A DNA stretch of 58,170 nt from a virus: positions 1 through 58,170 of IMG/VR virus record IMGVR_UViG_3300045118_000304, one strand, 5' to 3'. Made by a program: the position numbers and the translations under genes. A model generated the notes under the pieces. It ran no database searches and was not told where the DNA came from. It saw only the letters and a list, made by a program, of their open reading frames with translations. Below, one piece after another: positions 3,001-52,468 of this stretch; the stretch's first letter is position 1, and every line of letters starts with the position of its first letter.

Positions 3001-6000
3001 TCGTGTCCAAGTATCAGCGTAGATAGTTCCAAACACTCCCCAAATATCGCTATTAACTGTACCGTTTGTATCAGTCCAAACCCAAACCGATGTAGTGTAT
3101 GTTCCACTGGATAACGCTCCGGTCAAATTCAGATAATACCATAAATCAGTTGCATCATCAGATTTATGATATAATACTGTACTTCCATCTGGCGCAGTTA
3201 CATTACCAGTAATATCTGTACCGACACCACCACCAGATCGCCCATAAAAACAATCATCGGATACACCTGTAAGTAAGTTAGTATGTATCTTACCAACGTA
3301 GAAAGTATTACCTATGGTAGAACCTCCACCTACAGCAAGTGTTCCAACAATATTTGCATTACCTTCCGCATACAAATCTCTTGTATAAACTCCAAACGTG
3401 CTTGATGCTAATGCTCCATATGTTAGTGTATTGACTCCACTTAAATCGCCAATTTGAGAACGAGTTATTAAATCGGTCTGTGGAGCAGTCGTCCATGTCG
3501 CTATGCGATCATACGGACGATTACCTACTTCATTCAGCGCACATCTTTCTAAAATACCGTTCCCCGATACTCCATAGTCTAAAGCAATAGTTCCTTTTGT
3601 ATAAGTAGTAGATGTACCAGACTGTTTTGTATATGTGTAACGCTGATATTTATTTGTGGTATCTCTATCATAATATGTTACAGTCAACCACGCTTCAGTA
3701 ATATCCAAATGAAACGCGCCCATCGAAATATTCTTAATGCGAACATAATCTCCGTCAGCAAAAACCTGACCTGTATAGCCAGTGATTTCTTCTACATACA
3801 AATAAGTATCAGTACCACATACAAAATCTTGATATAATTTAGCAGCAGATTTACAAATAATTTGTCCACCAACTAATGCTTGTTCAATATCAGTAATAAA
3901 TGATTTTGCATGCATCTCATTGACAGTTAGTTTTCCAAACACAGAGCCAACTTGTGTTAAATAATATCCAGTATATGGATCACTTACAGAATAGGTAGTT
4001 GAATAGATAGCTTTTGCGTTTGCCATTATTACATTGCCAGCAAATGTAGCAGAGTCGTCACTTTCTAAAATACGTAGTGCTTCAACACCGGCAACTGTAA
4101 CAGCAAATCTTGCCCCTCCACTTGTTTCTCTTGATATATACGTATTTGTCCCAACACCAAGCATGTATCCTTTACCCGTAGCAATAGTCACATTTCCATT
4201 GGACAAAGTAAGATTACTTGGAACTACCACATTCCCAGAATTGTCAATCGTGATTGAATTAGCTAAAGCATAATTATCGCCGCCCAGATACAAATAGCTG
4301 TCTGTACGCTTTAAGACTCCTATAAATGCTGCTGATGTATTTGATTGAGGTGCTATGACACATATATTATTTGGTATAACAATTTCATTACCTTGAAATT
4401 GACCGCTTGTGTAAGAAGTTAAATTAACTCCAATAGCAACGGCTCTTGTTGCTTCACAAGTGCCTAATTGCAATACTCGATAAGCACCACTATAACCAAA
4501 ATAAGAATCTGTTATGTATAATGGTGTTGACCCTATACCAACACCGAGCGTACTCTTATTTAATCTAAGTGCATAGCCAACGCCATACGAATAAAACCCC
4601 AAATCATTTGTTGTCTCAATTAAATTAACATCCCAAACCACTGAATCAGATCGTTTTATCCTAAATGGTGTCTGACTTCCAGCAGCAGTAATATTTACAA
4701 TTAGTCCATAATAATCATAATTGGTTGTTATATAACCATTCGTTAAAGTAATGTTATTTGCAAATGTAACAGCGTTAGTAGTCTTATCAAAAATTACTGT
4801 ATTTGTACCACTTTCGTTGTAAATATACAAATTACTATTACTAAGCTCTCTTTGACCAACAAACCATTCTCCGGCTCCATTAGTTCGATAAGATAGTCCG
4901 AGATAGTTTGTGTTTGCAGGACGATTTAAAACAAAATATTTATTGGTAATTGGCTGTAAATATATGTTCTCCTTGAACATCCAAGAACTATTGCTAATGT
5001 GAGCTGAATAGCCATAACTTGTATGCTCAACATAATATTCACCAACGGGAGTAGTTTTGGAATTATTAATAGTTGGATTTACTGTAAAACAATTTAATAA
5101 CCTCCAATTTATATTTACTCCGTAAGTTACTGGATTTAGTTTAACGTAAACAGACTTTGCTCCTCCATTTACTCCCTCCAAACGCACAGCCAACAGTCGA
5201 GGATTGTAAGAATGATGCTCAATTTCCAACATAGGAGAATACGAATCAGGAGTATAATATGTTGTCATTACTTTTATTTCAAAAGGCTGCTCATTGTCTG
5301 TAGAACTAATATATCCTTTAACAGTAGCATAACCATATTCACCTCCAAATGTGAATAATTTTAGCCAGACAGGATCGCTACCCGCTTCCCAACTTTCTGT
5401 GTAAGTCGTTGAATTGTACATTCCGTTGCTTATTACAGCATTAGCAAATGTAGCTACATGATCAGCTCCAAGCGTTAATGTTAAAGCATCATCAGAGCCG
5501 TAAAATGCCGACCAGCCATCATCGCGCACAAGAAATCGTGTACTTCCACTTGAGTTGGATGCTTCAAAACTGTATGTACTCGAACTTGTTCCAGTACCAC
5601 GAACAGATAATCTACCATTACCTATTACTGGAATGCCTACAAATCCATTTTTATCTATTAACAATCTTACTAAATCAGGCGCACTTAATCCTTGTGATGA
5701 TTCTGTCCTGATTGCGAAATCACCATAAGCGTATTGATCGTTACCTAACCACCAACGTCTTGAGTCAGATGCTCCAGATTTATAATCCCAAGCCACATAT
5801 TTACCATCTGTAGCGCTTGGTAATGTTATAGATGTAAATGGAGTTGCTGTTTCAACACCGATATAACCATTGCGCTGGGTTATTCCAGCGTGCCAAGAGC
5901 TACCATACCAATCATATAGCGTCCATGCAGAATTACTTAGAGGATTAAGGGCGAATGCTGGGGTAGAAGAATTATAAGCTACCCCCAATCCTGTAGATTG

Positions 6001-30594: not shown

Positions 30595-30609
30595 TAATGA
30601 AAAGAATTG

Positions 30610-32929
30610 ATGAATGTAAATATAAGTGGTGAATTAACCATAACCGATTACACAGAAGACGAGGCACACCAGATAAAAGCGAGCCTTGTGACCGAAAATC
30701 CAACCTGGGTAACGGCTATGAGTATGAACAAAAGTCTGTGGGGGATCGAACCAAAGCTTCGATTTTACACAGAAGCAAACAATACAATAACCGCCCCCGT
30801 TGGTTTCCTTTCGTCATTGAAGATAATAAATCCTAATTTACAGATTGATGATAATCGCTATTATAGCAAAACTCCTATACAAATAGAATTTACCGGGGAG
30901 TTACGAGATTATCAAAAAACTGCAGTAGATGTATTAAGTAATACAACAAACGGGGTTTTATGCTCTATCACGGCTTCAGGAAAAACCGTTATAGCCTGTG
31001 CGTTACTTGCAAAACTAAAACAACCTACATTGATACTGGTAGATACTATAGAACTTGCGCATCAATTTATTGCGCGATTAAAACAGTTCACCTCAGTAAA
31101 GAATATAGGAAAAATCGGCGCGGGCGAAAGAAAAATAAAACCAATAACTGTAGGGCTATTACAAAGCGTAAAAAAAATTGATCAATCAGAATTAAATAAA
31201 TTCGGAATGATAATATGCGATGAGGTATTGACAAGGTCCACATATTACGTATAATAACTTATGAAAAATAAAATTAAGATATTATATAAAAGTGGGTTGT
31301 CGGCTTATCAAATAATGCAAAAACTACACATTGCTTCAAAAGAATTAGTATACAATGTTATACATGAAGAAAAATTAACTAGGGACTACGAAGAATGCAG
31401 ACACCCTGGTTTGAATAGTCGTTATTTTAAAAATATAGATACAGAAGAAAAAGCGTATATACTTGGATTAATATTCGCCGACGGTTGTGTTAGAAAAAAT
31501 CGCCCAGGCATGACCTTAGCACTACATCCGAATGATCTGTACATGTTGCGACGGATTAAAGATATTTTAGGAACCAAGGCAAAGATTCAAATATCAAAAC
31601 AACCTTTAGCGGTGTATTATATAAATAATAAACAAATGAGATTAGACGTCATAGCTAAAGGGTGCTTGCCACAAAAATCTCTACGAGGTGGAAAACCCAA
31701 AAATATTCCTATAAAATACACACATCATTTTATTAGGGGTATATTTGATGGTGATGGTTCGATATATATAAGAAAAGTTCCTCATCTTAGATACTGTTTT
31801 GACATATCTGGCAATATCGATGTTGTTTCTTGGTGCCATAAAAGATTAAAACTTTATACTAAGATAACAAAACACCGCTCAATATTTAGATTAGAGACGA
31901 CTAATTTAATTGAAGTTGTTAGAATATTTAATTATTTATATAAAGACAGTACAATTTTTCTAAAGAGAAAAAAAGCATTATTTGAAAAAGCTTGTGCCGC
32001 ACTTGATCGTAAGATCAAAGGTGTAAATCAAGGAAAAACGGTAAAAACCCGTGATGGGCAATACCGTGCTAAACGCAAGGATAGCAAACAGGCCCTGCGC
32101 AGTGTAGAGCATAGGAATTGAATAAATATAATATTCCCAAGAGTCCTTGACATCCTTATAGGATGAAAATATATGCCGAGCTACAAAGTAATTTGTAGAA
32201 ATTGAGATAACAACCTCAATGATAACAAAATGACACATCGTACCAGCAAAAACATACGCTGAAGTTATTTCAAAGATACCAGCAAAATATAAATATGGAT
32301 TATCAGCCACACCAGAACGAGCTGATGGTCTTACTAAAGTAATATTCTGGTTAACCGGCCCATTGGTACATCAGGTTCCAGATGCCGCTGTTGCAGATAG
32401 AATTGTAAAACCTGTATATGAGTATATAAAAACTTCATATACGTATCCATTATTTGATACGTCAGAATATGGTATCATGATAACGGATATGGGTACTAAT
32501 GACATAAGAAATAAATTAATAGTTGACACCGTAAATAAATATAAAACACAACAATGTGTTCTATTGTGTCATAGACAAGAACATGCTCAGAGACTGGGTG
32601 CGTTACTACCGGACTCCGTAGTTTTATTATCCAGTGTAAAGAAAAAAGATCGCGCCGCTATTATGCAGCAACTTGAAAGCGGTAAAAAGCGTATTGTTGT
32701 TACTACCTGGCAATTGTTTCATAAAGGCATCGATCTGAAGGAGCTTGAGATCTTATTTATATGCGCACCAACACGAAGTAAAGTGTGGTTAAAACAAAGC
32801 GCCGGCAGACTAATGCGAGTTTCAAATAAGATAAAAAAGAATCCAGTCATTATTGATTTTGCGGATGTAAATATAGATTTACTAAAATTCCAATGGTATG
32901 CAAGAAAGAGAGTATTTACACAACTATGA
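30610..32929 (+). CDS. XPB/UvsW-like SF2 DNA helicase, split by group I intron (exons 30610-31226 and 32233-32929; 437 aa spliced)
   Basis: Exon 1 carries LRDYQKTAVDVL (Q-motif-like), Walker A ITASGKT and the first part of motif II (IICDE). Exon 2 opens with HIVPAKTY and carries motif III LSATPERADGL and motif VI QSAGRLMRVSNK. Joining T31226 to A32233 gives GAT GAG GTA CAC, restoring the DEVH box in frame; 617 + 697 nt is exactly 438 codons. Read unspliced, exon 1 runs into a stop at 31254. Such helicases remodel replication forks and recombination intermediates. I use ATG 30610 rather than the TTG just before it. First gene of the rightward arm. Confidence 0.85.
31227..32232 (+). mobile_element. 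Group I intron in helicase gene (1,006 nt) with LAGLIDADG gene
   Basis: The boundaries obey group I rules: the 5' exon ends in U and the intron ends in G, and splicing restores the helicase frame through motif II. The 3' part holds nested hairpins: ACGGTA/TACCGT around CCC/GGG (near 32038-32068), GGAAT/ATTCC (P8-like), CATCC/GGATG, CTACAAA-GTAA-TTTGTAG with a GNRA loop, and ATTGAG/CTCAAT near the 3' end. P1 and P7 were not assigned with confidence. Confidence 0.75.
31261..32121 (+). CDS. LAGLIDADG homing endonuclease (286 aa), intron-encoded
   Basis: Two LAGLIDADG motifs are visible: YILGLIFADG (residues 66-75) and FIRGIFDGDG (157-166), with the acidic residues of a monomeric two-motif enzyme. 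Residues 11-34 look like a helix-turn-helix. It sits entirely inside the helicase intron, starting 34 nt after the 5' splice site. It would cut intronless alleles at the motif II coding sequence and spread the intron. The last 30 or so codons (KTVKTRDGQYRAKRKDSK) are read through ribozyme-core hairpins, so this tail is constrained by RNA structure. Confidence 0.85.
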   Translation: MKNKIKILYKSGLSAYQIMQKLHIASKELVYNVIHEEKLTRDYEECRHPGLNSRYFKNIDTEEKAYILGLIFADGCVRKNRPGMTLALHPNDLYMLRRIKDILGTKAKIQISKQPLAVYYINNKQMRLDVIAKGCLPQKSLRGGKPKNIPIKYTHHFIRGIFDGDGSIYIRKVPHLRYCFDISGNIDVVSWCHKRLKLYTKITKHRSIFRLETTNLIEVVRIFNYLYKDSTIFLKRKKALFEKACAALDRKIKGVNQGKTVKTRDGQYRAKRKDSKQALRSVEHRN

Positions 32930-34398: not shown

Positions 34399-34801
34399 CT
34401 GCTTTCAGTTTGCATTCAGAGATAAATTTGATTATGTAGCGAAACAACTCGAGATTGCTACAGCATTGGACTCCAGTAAAATCTCCGTGCCTTTCTCCGT
34501 TGTACATTTAAATAATTTTTGGTTATTCTTACCAAGTACACAGCATGATGATACGCATCATATGATTATTACAAATGTAGTTTCATCGCTCGCACATGTA
34601 TTTTTATCAAGAATACGTATGCGTGTACATTACACAAGACCACAGTCTATCAATGTCATAGGAATTATAGAGGGCCATATTGGATTGAATTCACGACGAT
34701 TATTTAATTCTATAAGTATGCAACCAGATATGTTTATGAAAGCACCGACATATGAAACTATGCGAGAAGACTTAAGAACCGGTTTATGGATAACAACTTA
34801 A
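34358..34801 (+). CDS. Protein of unknown function (147 aa)
   Basis: Overlaps the previous gene by 41 nt and the next by 16 nt. Contains aromatic and His-rich stretches (STQHDDTHHMIITNV). The start may be a few codons downstream (Met at codon 4 or 9). No motif recognised. Confidence 0.5.
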   Translation: MISMQPFQMTDNYDCFQFAFRDKFDYVAKQLEIATALDSSKISVPFSVVHLNNFWLFLPSTQHDDTHHMIITNVVSSLAHVFLSRIRMRVHYTRPQSINVIGIIEGHIGLNSRRLFNSISMQPDMFMKAPTYETMREDLRTGLWITT

Positions 34802-35853
34802 TCTTTGCTATTGAAAAACTAGGGGCCACGATCTACTTATTTGGTGAATGTGTTTGGGCAACAGCATTAAAAATAAAAGTGCAGTATTATAAGTTAGCTA
34901 TAATTGGAGTAACCCGCGAACAGGTAATTCCATTGTTAGATAACTATACATTGCACAGAACAAAACCAACACTGCAGATAAGTGACGGTGACACAACATA
35001 TGAATTGTATTTTTTGAATAGTATAGATAGTGTACCATTTGATCCTATATCGATAAACAATGCTATTCTCAGTCTGGATGGCAAGGTATTTCGCGCCGAT
35101 GATTTAAAGAATAAACTCATTCGTGCCAATACCTCCACATTTCTCGATTACCCCGAAGAGTTATTACGGATATGTCGCATTGCTGCGCAAACCTCTTTTG
35201 CCGTAGATGTCCCAACGTGGGTAACAATGTACGAACATTCACGATTGATCAAGAATGTAGTAAAGAGCAACCCAGCATATATTGGAAAACAATTGCAACA
35301 AATAATTATGTCAAAAAATCCGGGGCATGGTTTTCGTTTGATGTTAGAGACCAACGTACTACAATATATTTTTCCAGAGTTAGCACGTTGTAACAATATT
35401 CGTCAAACACGTCGGGGCGAAGGCATCAATGTATTTGAACACATATTGTTGGCTATAAATGCGGCAGCACTTGAAGAAGAAATCAGATGGACTATGTTAT
35501 TTCATGATATGGCAAAACCAACTACTATGGATATTACTTCCGATGGTAAAATGCATTTTTTCAAACACGAATTTGTAGGCGCCGAGCTCGCTGTAACATA
35601 CATGACAAAATATAAATTACCGCCGTCTCTAATACAAACTGTAAAGATATTAATAGAGAATCATATGTTTGACGCGGACCCGAAGTTAACCGTAAAGGGC
35701 GTGCGTCGTCTAATTAAAAGAGTCGGCAAAGAAAACATATATCAACTTATAAAAGTGCGAGAAGCGGATAGACGTGGTACCATGGTTCCACCGTCAAATG
35801 ATAAGATAGAATTGTTAAAAACCAAAATCGAAAAAGAATTATCAAATGTTTAA
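34786..35853 (+). CDS. CCA-adding enzyme/poly(A) polymerase homologue with HD domain; nucleotidyltransferase residues lost (355 aa)
   Basis: Residues 10-140 follow the class II CCA-enzyme head and neck closely: IYLFGECVWATAL stands where GG.VRD.LL is expected, FDPISINNAI for RRDFTINA, ADDLKNKLIR for the GG.DL..R.IR motif, and FLDYPEELLRICRIAA for the ED..R.LR..RFA motif. The catalytic DxD is replaced by KLAI, and the Arg-Asp of VRD by Trp-Ala. The C-terminal HD domain keeps its ligands (FEHI at 218-221, LFHD at 238-241, a later FKHE). Likely a phosphohydrolase or tRNA-end-binding protein rather than a polymerase. Notable because no phage tRNA here encodes CCA. Confidence 0.8.
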   Translation: MDNNLIFAIEKLGATIYLFGECVWATALKIKVQYYKLAIIGVTREQVIPLLDNYTLHRTKPTLQISDGDTTYELYFLNSIDSVPFDPISINNAILSLDGKVFRADDLKNKLIRANTSTFLDYPEELLRICRIAAQTSFAVDVPTWVTMYEHSRLIKNVVKSNPAYIGKQLQQIIMSKNPGHGFRLMLETNVLQYIFPELARCNNIRQTRRGEGINVFEHILLAINAAALEEEIRWTMLFHDMAKPTTMDITSDGKMHFFKHEFVGAELAVTYMTKYKLPPSLIQTVKILIENHMFDADPKLTVKGVRRLIKRVGKENIYQLIKVREADRRGTMVPPSNDKIELLKTKIEKELSNV

Positions 35854-47969: not shown

Positions 47970-48101
47970 GCGGGTCGATAGATGTTAGTTATCGGTTAAA
48001 GCATATATCTCAAAAATATAACACTCTAGGTTCAAGTCCTAGCGCGTATGAAAATACGTAGTAGCTAAATTAAAAACACTGACGTCGCTTAAATTACCCG
48101 C
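47970..48101 (+). tRNA. tRNA-Leu(CAA)-like gene with rearranged acceptor stem (possible circular permutation)
   Basis: A D-arm-like segment, an anticodon arm TATAT-CTCAAAA-ATATA (48004-48020, anticodon CAA), a 5-nt variable loop and a perfect T-arm CTAGG-TTCAAGT-CCTAG are followed by CGCGTAT plus G (48043-48050). No matching 5' acceptor strand lies upstream. Instead ATACG (48054-48058) directly follows and pairs with CGTAT across GAAA. An outer pair GCGGGT/ACCCGC (47970-47975 / 48096-48101) brackets the whole. Either a permuted tRNA or a decayed one; the short variable loop is unusual for Leu. Confidence 0.45.
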
Positions 48102-48106
48102 GATAT

Positions 48107-48189
48107 GTATCTGTTGAGCAACTGGCTGGCTCGCCTGACTGTAGATCAGGTCCCCTTTGGGCGTGGGGGTTCGAATCCCTCCAGATACA
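48107..48189 (+). tRNA. tRNA-Tyr(GTA)
   Basis: Acceptor GTATCTG/CAGATAC, anticodon stem CCTGA/TCAGG with loop CTGTAGA (GTA), long variable arm (TCCCCTTTGGGCG) typical of bacterial tRNA-Tyr, T-loop TTCGAAT. No CCA. Confidence 0.92.
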
Positions 48190-48191
48190 CT

Positions 48192-48266
48192 GTGGCCGTA
48201 GGACAATTGGCTTAGTCCGACAGGTTGTGGCCCTGTACGTTATGGGTTCGAATCCCATCGGTCACC
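48192..48266 (+). tRNA. tRNA-His(GTG)
   Basis: Acceptor GTGGCCG/CGGTCAC, anticodon stem ACAGG/CCTGT with loop TTGTGGC (GTG), C73. The base before the acceptor is T, so the G-1 normally needed by His-tRNA synthetase is not encoded opposite C73. Confidence 0.88.
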
Positions 48267-48323
48267 TACATTCCCCTTGTGTCCCTGAAGAAATTCAAAC
48301 CTTGGGTAGAAAGGAAAAACATC

Positions 48324-48990
48324 ATGAGTAACATTTTATTGGAATTACAAGCTGGCGAGGGTGGAGCGGATGCAAAACTCCTCGTCGAGGATCAATTAAG
48401 TATTTATTTAAAAGTCGCGTATAAACACGGACTTTGAGGCAATTCCAATATATGTTAGTGATGGGTTTGCTTCAGTTCAGGTTATCGGACAAAGAGCAAA
48501 GGAATTATTTGAAAACGAGGGTGGTGCGCACCAATGGCACAGAGTTCCTCCTACAGAAAACCGAGGACGAACACATACCTCTGTTGTAACAGTTGCAGTG
48601 TTGGATCTTATAGAACTTCCCGAGGTCAGTATAAATTTTAATGACGTTGAAGTTACAACCACTAAAGGAAGCGGTCCTGGAGGACAGAATCGTAATAAAG
48701 TTGAAACAGTTGTTGTATTAAAACATAAATCAGGGTTAACTGTTCGTTGCGGTTCCGAAAGATCCCAGTACCAAAACAAACAACTTGCTTTTGAAATATT
48801 ATATTCTAAGTTACAACGTATCGCTAAATATAATCATCAAAAACAAGCGGCCCAAAATAAACGATTGCAGATGGGGTCGGGACATCGAGCAGAAAAAATT
48901 CGTACTTATATGGTAAAACATAATTTATGGATTGACCATAGAACAAACGAGCGACGCGATCTGAAAGCGTGGATAAAGGGTAAATGGTAA
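48324..48990 (+). CDS. RF1-type peptide chain release factor with +1 frameshift at CUU UGA (221 aa)
   Basis: ATG 48324 follows AAGGAAAAAC. Codons 1-37 (LLELQAGEGGADAKLL, as in RF1 LEIRAGTGG) end at CTT TGA (48432-48437). A +1 shift over T48435 continues GAG GCA ATT in a frame open to 48990. The rest shows HRVPPTENRGRTHTS (RF1-type PxT anticodon motif, 75-77), SGPGGQNRNKVE (GGQ 119-121) and GSGHRAEKIRTY near the end. Domain 1 and the C-terminal extension of cellular RF1 are missing. CUU UGA is the core of the bacterial RF2 shift site, but here it is in an RF1-like gene and no strong upstream Shine-Dalgarno is seen. A sequencing error is the main alternative. Confidence 0.8.
48432..48438 (+). 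other. Putative +1 frameshift site CTT TGA G
   Basis: Slippery CTT followed by in-frame TGA; slipping of peptidyl-tRNA-Leu by one base gives UUU pairing and continues in the +1 frame. Same core as the known prfB site. The usual Shine-Dalgarno-like stimulator three nt upstream is weak (ACACGGA). Confidence 0.65.
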
Positions 48991-49245: not shown

Positions 49246-49320
49246 GGGAGATTAGCTCAGCTGGTTTAGAGCGTCGGTCCTACAAACCGAAGGTCCACGG
49301 TTCGATCCCGTGATCTCCCA
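49246..49320 (+). tRNA. tRNA-Val(TAC) with C33
   Basis: Acceptor GGGAGAT/ATCTCCC, D-arm TAGCTCAGCTGG, anticodon stem TCGGT/ACCGA. The loop is CCTACAA: anticodon TAC preceded by C where nearly all tRNAs have U33. T-arm CACGG-TTCGATC-CCGTG. No CCA. Confidence 0.88.
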
Positions 49321-49325
49321 CACAT

Positions 49326-51303: not shown

Positions 51304-51908
51304 AACAATATCCAGAAATTCCTAAAGATGTGCCATCTTTTAATGCACACGTGTTCGATAAAATAGATGGTAGTAACTTACGTTTTGAATACAGCAAAAA
51401 ACGTGGTTGGTTTAAATTCGGTACGCGCACAAGATTATTTGACCAATCAGATGACGTATTTGGATCAGCAGTTCCTTTATTTCACGAAACGTTGTTATTC
51501 CCGCTTACCCAAATTATGATTGATAACCGATTTGAACATGCGGTAGTGTTTGCAGAATTTGCTGGGAAAAGAAGTTTTGCTGGACAACATGAAAAAGATG
51601 ATGTGAAGACACTGACGGTGTTTGATGTGGCCTTAGATAAAAAAGGATTCGTATCTCCTAAGATGTTCATAAAATTATTTGACGGTAAAGTACTGATACC
51701 AAAATATCTTGGATATTATCGCTGGAATAAAGAATTTACCACTAAGATCTATTATAATGAAATAGAAGGAATCACTTTTGAAGGAGTCGTCGGCAAAGAT
51801 GGGGAGGGGACGCACTACAATATGGCAAAAGCTAAGACATTGCAGTGGTTAAATAAAGTACATGCTTTATATTCAGATAATCTAGCAGATAAGATAATAA
51901 ATAGTTAA
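51300..51908 (+). CDS. RNA ligase (nucleotidyltransferase fold, 202 aa)
   Basis: Ligase motifs in order: motif I DKIDGSN (nucleotidyl Lys21), FKFGTRTR (motif Ia-like), motif III VFAEFAGKRSF (82-93), motif IV FEGVVGK (160-166), motif V AKAKTLQW (176-183). It resembles phage Rnl2-like and DRB0094-type ligases and lacks an accessory domain. It seals nicks in RNA through an adenylated intermediate; in a tRNA-rich phage the likely job is tRNA repair after anticodon cleavage. Overlaps the next gene by one nt. Confidence 0.83.
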   Translation: MKQYPEIPKDVPSFNAHVFDKIDGSNLRFEYSKKRGWFKFGTRTRLFDQSDDVFGSAVPLFHETLLFPLTQIMIDNRFEHAVVFAEFAGKRSFAGQHEKDDVKTLTVFDVALDKKGFVSPKMFIKLFDGKVLIPKYLGYYRWNKEFTTKIYYNEIEGITFEGVVGKDGEGTHYNMAKAKTLQWLNKVHALYSDNLADKIINS

Positions 51909-52468
51909 TGGAACAACTAATCTGCGGTAAAAACCATAAGAAGATCGGGGTAACTCCTTCGATCGTACTAATTAATCCTAAATATCCAAGAAACGTTGGC
52001 GCAATAATACGTGCTGCATCTTGTTTTGGTATAGCCCAGGTTTGGTACACCGGCAATCGTGTATCAATGACACCAACAAAAGATTATCGTTTACCAAGAG
52101 AAGAACGGATGAAGGGTTATAAAGAAGTTACACTCACACAATTTGATTATCCGTTTGATATGTTTGAAAAAGCAATTCCTATTGCAATTGAAGTGCGAGA
52201 AAACTCTGAAAACTTATTAGACTTTGAACATCCATATAATGCAGTGTATGTTTTTGGTCCAGAAGATGGTGGTATTGAACGAGTACATATGCAACACTGC
52301 CATCGAATTGTCACTATACCCACGAAACATTGCACAAACTTGGCAGCGGCTGTTTATCTTACTTTATATGATAGATATGCCAAACGAGTACGTGCAGGAA
52401 AAGATCAAATATTCAATATAGGAAAAAATGAACAACGAGGTTATGAAGAAGGGGCTGAATTTGGATGA
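51908..52468 (+). CDS. SpoU/TrmL-like RNA 2'-O-methyltransferase (186 aa)
   Basis: SPOUT motifs: 1 NPKYPRNVGAIIRAA (23-37, Asn and Arg present), 2 VYVFGPEDGGI, 3 TIPTKHCTNLAAAVYLTLYD (Ser and Asn of the usual motif partly changed to His-Cys-Thr-Asn). It has the compact length of TrmL, which methylates anticodon-loop position 34. It lies directly after the RNA ligase; both point to tRNA protection or repair. Overlaps the CYTH gene by ATGA. Confidence 0.85.
   Translation: MEQLICGKNHKKIGVTPSIVLINPKYPRNVGAIIRAASCFGIAQVWYTGNRVSMTPTKDYRLPREERMKGYKEVTLTQFDYPFDMFEKAIPIAIEVRENSENLLDFEHPYNAVYVFGPEDGGIERVHMQHCHRIVTIPTKHCTNLAAAVYLTLYDRYAKRVRAGKDQIFNIGKNEQRGYEEGAEFG

Follow-up and report, generated by a model that had tools for sequence, protein, structure and literature searches.

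The window analysed here, 58,170 nt long (positions 1 to 58,170 of the 58-kb IMG/VR virus record IMGVR_UViG_3300045118_000304), carries a release factor gene that sits between tRNA-His and tRNA-Val. Frame 0 opens with ATG at 48324 and runs to a CTT codon at 48432–48434 that is followed by TGA at 48435–48437, and the +1 frame then continues from GAG at 48436 to TAA at 48988–48990 without loss of protein, so that the fused product would comprise 221 residues. The original prediction, that a conserved protein is interrupted exactly at CTT TGA G and that the +1 frame carries on its domain 2, held with exact coordinates. The features of the locus are the following.

48107–48266, plus strand: tRNA-Tyr and tRNA-His just upstream of the gene, part of the phage tRNA array
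48310–48315, plus strand: ribosome-binding site AAAGGA, read directly from the sequence, with the start codon 8 nt downstream
48324–48437, plus strand: zero-frame open reading frame of 37 codons covering the start of domain 2 (AGEGGADA region and helix) and ending in TGA, supported by homologue conservation and by dN far below dS in pairs
48423–48431, plus strand: position of the Shine-Dalgarno stimulator in 47 of 55 homologues (commonly CGGAGG plus 3 nt)
48432–48437, plus strand: +1 shift site CTT TGA (slippery CTTT), followed by G, supported by CTT in 55 of 55 homologues
48436–48990, plus strand: +1-frame continuation of 184 codons plus TAA, encoding the remainder of domain 2, domain 3 (GGQ) and domain 4
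48547–48555, plus strand: PPT recognition motif, of the RF1-type PxT form, from sequence and alignment
48679–48687, plus strand: GGQ catalytic motif, from sequence
49246–49321, plus strand: tRNA-Val just downstream

The tRNA array of the window contains 19 tRNAs by ARAGORN, and an extra low-scoring tRNA at 47978–48050 (31.1 bits with Rfam), slightly upstream of the release factor gene, went undetected by that program. Also translation-related are a SpoU-type RNA methylase at 51908–52468 and, at 34786–35853, an HD-domain protein with a polyA-polymerase/CCA-enzyme RNA-binding region. The helicase gene at 30607–32929 contains a LAGLIDADG open reading frame (31261–32121) that separates a preceding ResIII/DEAD part from a following Helicase_C part. 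The interruption is probably an intron or other homing-endonuclease insertion; Rfam identified no known intron at this helicase.

Scanning IMG/VR with two queries, the read-through protein and an alignment, gave about 140 loci, which were then classed by a three-frame profile search. The queries were mostly frameshift members, and the class frequencies are therefore biased by the manner in which the loci were found. A +1 shift is needed in 58 sequences, 55 of which remain after dropping those with more than 80% identity, and in these frameshift homologues the frame changes, with two exceptions, at profile position 37. CTT immediately precedes the stop in every one of the 55 distinct homologues, set against a background in which CTT accounts for 22% of the Leu codons of the carriers, and this conservation is beyond chance even on the assumption of no more than 20 independent lineages. 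The stop that follows is TGA in 45 homologues, TAG in nine and TAA in one. A stop, in most cases UGA, thus breaks the gene at a conserved codon and has to be bypassed by a +1 shift from CUU. No frame change or internal stop was found in 80 bacterial RF1 genes. The release factor gene is also carried by the uncultured huge-phage records LR745206, LR745208 and LR756501–504, and only one gene with an RF-1 domain was present per carrier record; ribosome recycling factor was not found in 17 carriers.

The original prediction had proposed a comparison with homologues and would have been refuted by homologues lacking any frame change. That comparison has now been run: 55 distinct homologues share the +1 site, while ten family members show no recoding at all and 28 relatives carry in-frame stops. 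Because ten members do without it, we infer that recoding is dispensable in some settings.

A sequencing error, an assembly error or a decayed gene would also produce an interrupted reading frame, and in favour of such an explanation the window is known from a single metagenomic contig and its copy lacks a stimulator. It is refuted by the homologues, in which the same codon recurs in 55 divergent genes. In close homologue pairs dN is well below dS on either side of the shift, identical shift sites occur in the separate assemblies L006 and L007, and among the relatives with in-frame stops the UGA is fixed in four Variovorax isolate genomes. We regard error or decay as all but excluded. Recoding of these phage RF1-like genes is well supported, and very likely real as far as sequence alone can tell; the efficiency of frameshifting, the codon specificity of the product and the purpose of the arrangement are inferred.

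The fused window product contains PCRF and RF-1 domains above cut-offs and scores 175 bits against NF001859 and 169.6 bits against TIGR00019 (RF1), compared with 119 for RF2 and 73.8 for PrfH. The 423-bit threshold of TIGR00019 for full-length RF1 is not reached. Matches to the RF1 models begin at model position 104–112 (112 for TIGR00019) and the alignment to the RF1 crystal structure starts at residue 88, from which it follows that domain 1 is absent, as had been predicted. Peptide chain release factor H (PrfH) was rejected as an identity for the product, as the score of 73.8 against TIGR03072 lies below the cut-off of 166.65. The GGQ motif is kept in the window and in 55 of 55 frameshift homologues, and the recognition residues are widely retained (Gln181 in 54, Pro184 in 48, Thr186 in 45 and Thr194 in 50 of the 55). 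The window protein has PPT, His193 and Thr194, with His in place of the RF1 Gln181 that is present in the other 54. His193 of RF1 lies in the decoding site. It is replaced by Gln in 26 of the 55 proteins, so specificity or accuracy could possibly differ in about half of the family.

An AlphaFold2 model of the L033 protein, which requires no recoding, has a pLDDT of 91.6, and this predicted structure matches ribosome-bound T. thermophilus RF1 with a TM-score of 0.93. In domain 2, the long helix (14–33) precedes the shift site and the next strand (37–44) follows it. When placed in a tree alongside bacterial RF1 and RF2 sequences, the phage and plasmid proteins fall into a single clade (100/99), which neighbours RF1 and is distant from RF2; the bootstrap of the careful tree, to which this and the further support values below are subject, was not fully settled. 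By motif and tree the proteins are likely to be of RF1 type and not RF2, in agreement with the PxT-based assignment made originally, and their release activity is an inference.

Pairing with the anti-Shine-Dalgarno sequence of 16S rRNA was scanned with an 8-nt segment slid along the genes. The best pairing lies just before CTT, with a mean of about -7 to -8 kcal/mol (z -3.9), and the stimulator is strong in 45 of the 55 genes, medium in two and lacking in eight, the window being among the eight. The internal Shine-Dalgarno ends about 3 nt upstream of CTT in 45–47 of 55. Its commonest form, CGG AGG NNN CTT TGA, amounts to GGAGG, three bases and CTT, which is the spacing of prfB (PMC12421855), and where Arg is encoded at the stimulator position the codon is AGG in 32 of 33 cases.

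The window has AAACACGGA at 48423–48431 before CTT, with a duplex of only -1.1 kcal/mol and hence no stimulator, so that its copy lacks the Shine-Dalgarno present in most relatives, a point that went beyond the original prediction. A fold of the 81 nt downstream in the window, considered as a replacement stimulator, was no better than those of shuffled sequences, and the base after the window UGA is G, compared with the C of prfB. Since there is neither a Shine-Dalgarno stimulator nor a C after the UGA, the window copy is by inference the least certain instance of frameshifting, though the protein sequence is conserved before as well as after the shift. The efficiency of this site may be low, or another stimulator may be used. 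The other copies without a Shine-Dalgarno are L029, L045, L054, L060, L075, L081 and L105. The third codon before the stop is CAC, AAC, AAT or TAC in seven of the eight stimulator-less copies, and these codons could perhaps reflect a different stimulator.

The base following the shift-site stop is C in 37 of the 55 homologues. Where the codon after the shift encodes Asp it is GAC in 29 cases and never GAT (background frequency of GAC 0.445, p 6e-11), and therefore UGA-U is avoided at the shift site. By comparison, U follows 12 of the 17 terminal UGAs of the frameshift genes. The terminal stops of the same 55 genes are TAA in 31, TGA in 17 and TAG in seven, so UAA is the commonest terminal stop whereas it occurs once at the shift site. 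We infer that the site likely prefers a stop that is read by one host factor alone, in a weak context; an amino-acid constraint on the next codon may add to the UGA bias.

It could be argued that the shift plays no part and that internal initiation or re-initiation yields a downstream fragment that functions by itself. A GTG at 48598 in the +1 frame and the annotation of the Variovorax gene as two open reading frames would be consistent with this. On the other hand, conservation of the +1 frame begins with the codon directly after the shift, the recognition loop of the window protein (48547–48555) precedes the first +1-frame start codon at 48598, and there would then be no reason for the conserved CTT, the stimulator and the weak +4 base. 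We consider internal initiation very unlikely.

The 28 relatives that show no shift, including a gene of a Variovorax megaplasmid, have in-frame stops instead, nearly all of them UGA. The original prediction foresaw neither this replacement of the frameshift by an in-frame UGA nor the presence of UAG (nine genes) or UAA (one gene) at the shift site itself. After redundancy removal the 27 phage relatives have one or two in-frame stops and no frame change, with the stops at profile positions 37, 38, 39, 44, 51 or 52; position 37 is the equivalent of a Trp in many bacterial RF1s (RGW/KGW). The base after the 33 in-frame UGAs of the phages is A in 22 and C in 11, never T or G, whereas the terminal UGAs of the carriers are followed by T in 112 cases, A in 101, C in 95 and G in 93; such an A/C-only context has a p of about 6e-11 by simple multiplication. 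The in-frame UGAs are inferred to be leaky, and it is likely that they are read through, most probably as Trp. In L026 (CTA TGA CTG, 3112–3114) and L030 (CTC TGA CTG, 3106–3108) Leu codons flank the in-frame TGA near the old frameshift position, and either readthrough or a short hop over the stop is possible there.

The readthrough-class phages were initially taken to be UGA-recoded, a reading that was rejected on coding density and stop usage, the latter checked on 20-kb stretches of the carriers. Genome-wide reassignment of UGA to Trp (code 4) would make the in-frame UGAs ordinary codons, and in its support these lie at Trp-like positions. Stop reassignment does occur in phages. Against it, UGA ends genes in the carriers, where the open frame beyond it is mostly short, and sense UGA is scarce in most AT-rich carriers (0.0–0.6 per 1000 codons, against 10–16 for TGG). 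The AT-rich exceptions are W04, G001 and G020, with 7.2, 2.1 and 1.2 sense UGAs per 1000; UGA still ends genes in all three, and the frame behind terminal UGAs closes within 2–5 codons. High-GC carriers are less clear by this measure. The release factor gene itself ends in TGA in L074, L126, L131 and L134, UGA appears to be an ordinary stop in the window phage (13 of 32 longer open reading frames end in it), and 13 of 31 genes of the Variovorax plasmid end in TGA. No suppressor tRNA with a UCA anticodon was seen in the stretches scanned, which are partial genomes only. Reassignment would moreover leave the frameshift class unexplained, and it is very unlikely.

Putative readthrough of individual UGAs is best illustrated by four Variovorax isolate megaplasmids, in which the release factor-like gene is split by TGA-C, is annotated as two open reading frames and lies next to an array of 43 tRNAs within 48 kb; we infer that these are the strongest case. 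The copy of Variovorax sp. WDL1 is L290 2471–3175, corresponding to NZ_LR594690.1 61340–62044, and this strain and the three other isolates provide cultivable material for the study of readthrough.

Within the phage and plasmid clade, 87 rows make up an inner clade (99/97) to which every frameshift and readthrough member belongs, together with four members that have no recoding, and six plain members lie outside it. There are two well-supported readthrough clades, one with the stop at position 37 (100/100) and one with stops at positions 44/52 (99/99), while L026, L030, L139 and Variovorax stand apart from both. Members with UAG at the shift site are scattered tips. The window adjoins the 44/52 clade in the quick tree and the L003/L032 group in the careful tree. 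The simplest reading, which is an inference, is an ancestral gate that turned into readthrough on several occasions and disappeared on a few.

Taken together, these genes likely encode compact RF1-type release factors of phages and a megaplasmid whose synthesis is gated by the efficiency of stop recognition. In prfB a slow stop lets the peptidyl-tRNA-Leu slip from CUU to UUU, aided by Shine-Dalgarno pairing. In the phage genes, ribosomes would terminate and yield a useless peptide as long as the factor for the gating stop (RF2 for UGA) is plentiful, and when that factor becomes limiting, for example late in infection or upon host shut-off, the ensuing pause would lead to the shift or readthrough and the phage factor would be made. 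Host shut-off, high demand and defence are candidate triggers of such a shortage. The PxT loop is expected to confer release at UAA and UAG, and the outcome would be an RF1-like reserve serving these two stops. Because the stop is mostly that of RF2 and the product is RF1-like, UGA-gated copies would be switched on by a shortage of RF2 and not by their own, i.e. cross-regulated by RF2, whereas UAG-gated copies would be self-regulated. The control by RF2 through UGA that was originally proposed remains an inference, as does the UAA/UAG specificity, and a pure RF2 sensor does not account for the nine UAG sites.

Alternatively, the phage factor may itself act at UGA, which would give plain negative feedback of the kind known for RF2. 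UGA occupies the site in 45 of 55 genes, the site is close to the prfB cassette, and specificity could have been altered in the proteins with Gln for His193 (26 of 55) or a non-Thr residue at PxT (10 of 55). However, PxT and Gln181 are of RF1 type in most members, the tree places the family beside RF1, and the SPF motif is absent in the members inspected; self-feedback at UGA is therefore unlikely. We favour, with some reservation, a bolder form of the cross-regulation model, in which the release factor reserve is gated by the termination state of the host, failure of RF2 at UGA would activate an RF1-type factor, and the gate was rebuilt several times (as a +1 shift at UGA, UAG or UAA, or as UGA readthrough) with its purpose kept. 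The existence of such a family suggests that large phages have to cope with termination capacity as a bottleneck.

The frameshift of prfB is the textbook example of a release factor sensing its own shortage; what is new here is that an RF1-type factor has a frameshift, that the shift site can contain UAG, and that in-frame UGAs are candidates for readthrough. Both systems have a CTTT slippery site, UGA, a weak base after the stop and a class-I release factor as product, and prfB shares with most of the phage homologues, the window excepted, an internal Shine-Dalgarno 3 nt upstream. They differ in that the phage product is RF1-type and not RF2, in that UAG and UAA also occur at the phage site, and in that this site lies at codon 37 in domain 2 whereas that of RF2 lies at codon 26 near the N-terminus. 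Because the site is at a different place in the protein, the phage gate arose independently of prfB. A 2025 mBio survey found neither a conserved or convincing frameshift motif in prfA nor any TAG in that of prfB (PMC12421855), every CUU-stop +1 shift in RECODE is prfB according to the PRFect paper (PMC10885494), and a 2016 review considered in-frame UGA readthrough in RF2, and its UAG counterpart in RF1 genes, unknown in bacteria (PMC5009743). The negative statements of the survey and the review concern bacterial genes, and the present family is phage. The huge-phage paper reports the presence of RF1/RF2 (PMC7162821), and its text does not contain frameshift, UGA, TGA or recod-, i.e. no recoding of release factors is described. 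Recoding of RF1-type factors in phages is thus new relative to the open-access literature searched, and a report elsewhere is possible. Like PrfH, the family consists of RF1/RF2 relatives without domain 1, but it retains the canonical PxT and RF1 residues. The eRF1 of Mimivirus and Megavirus, which requires readthrough at UGA-C and a frameshift at CUU UAG C or CUU UAA C (PMC3521657), is likewise a viral class-I release factor whose gate consists of a frameshift and readthrough, in local contexts similar to those of the phage genes. That eRF1 is eukaryotic/archaeal-type and not homologous, both events occur in one gene, and the host is eukaryotic; the resemblance is a striking convergence.
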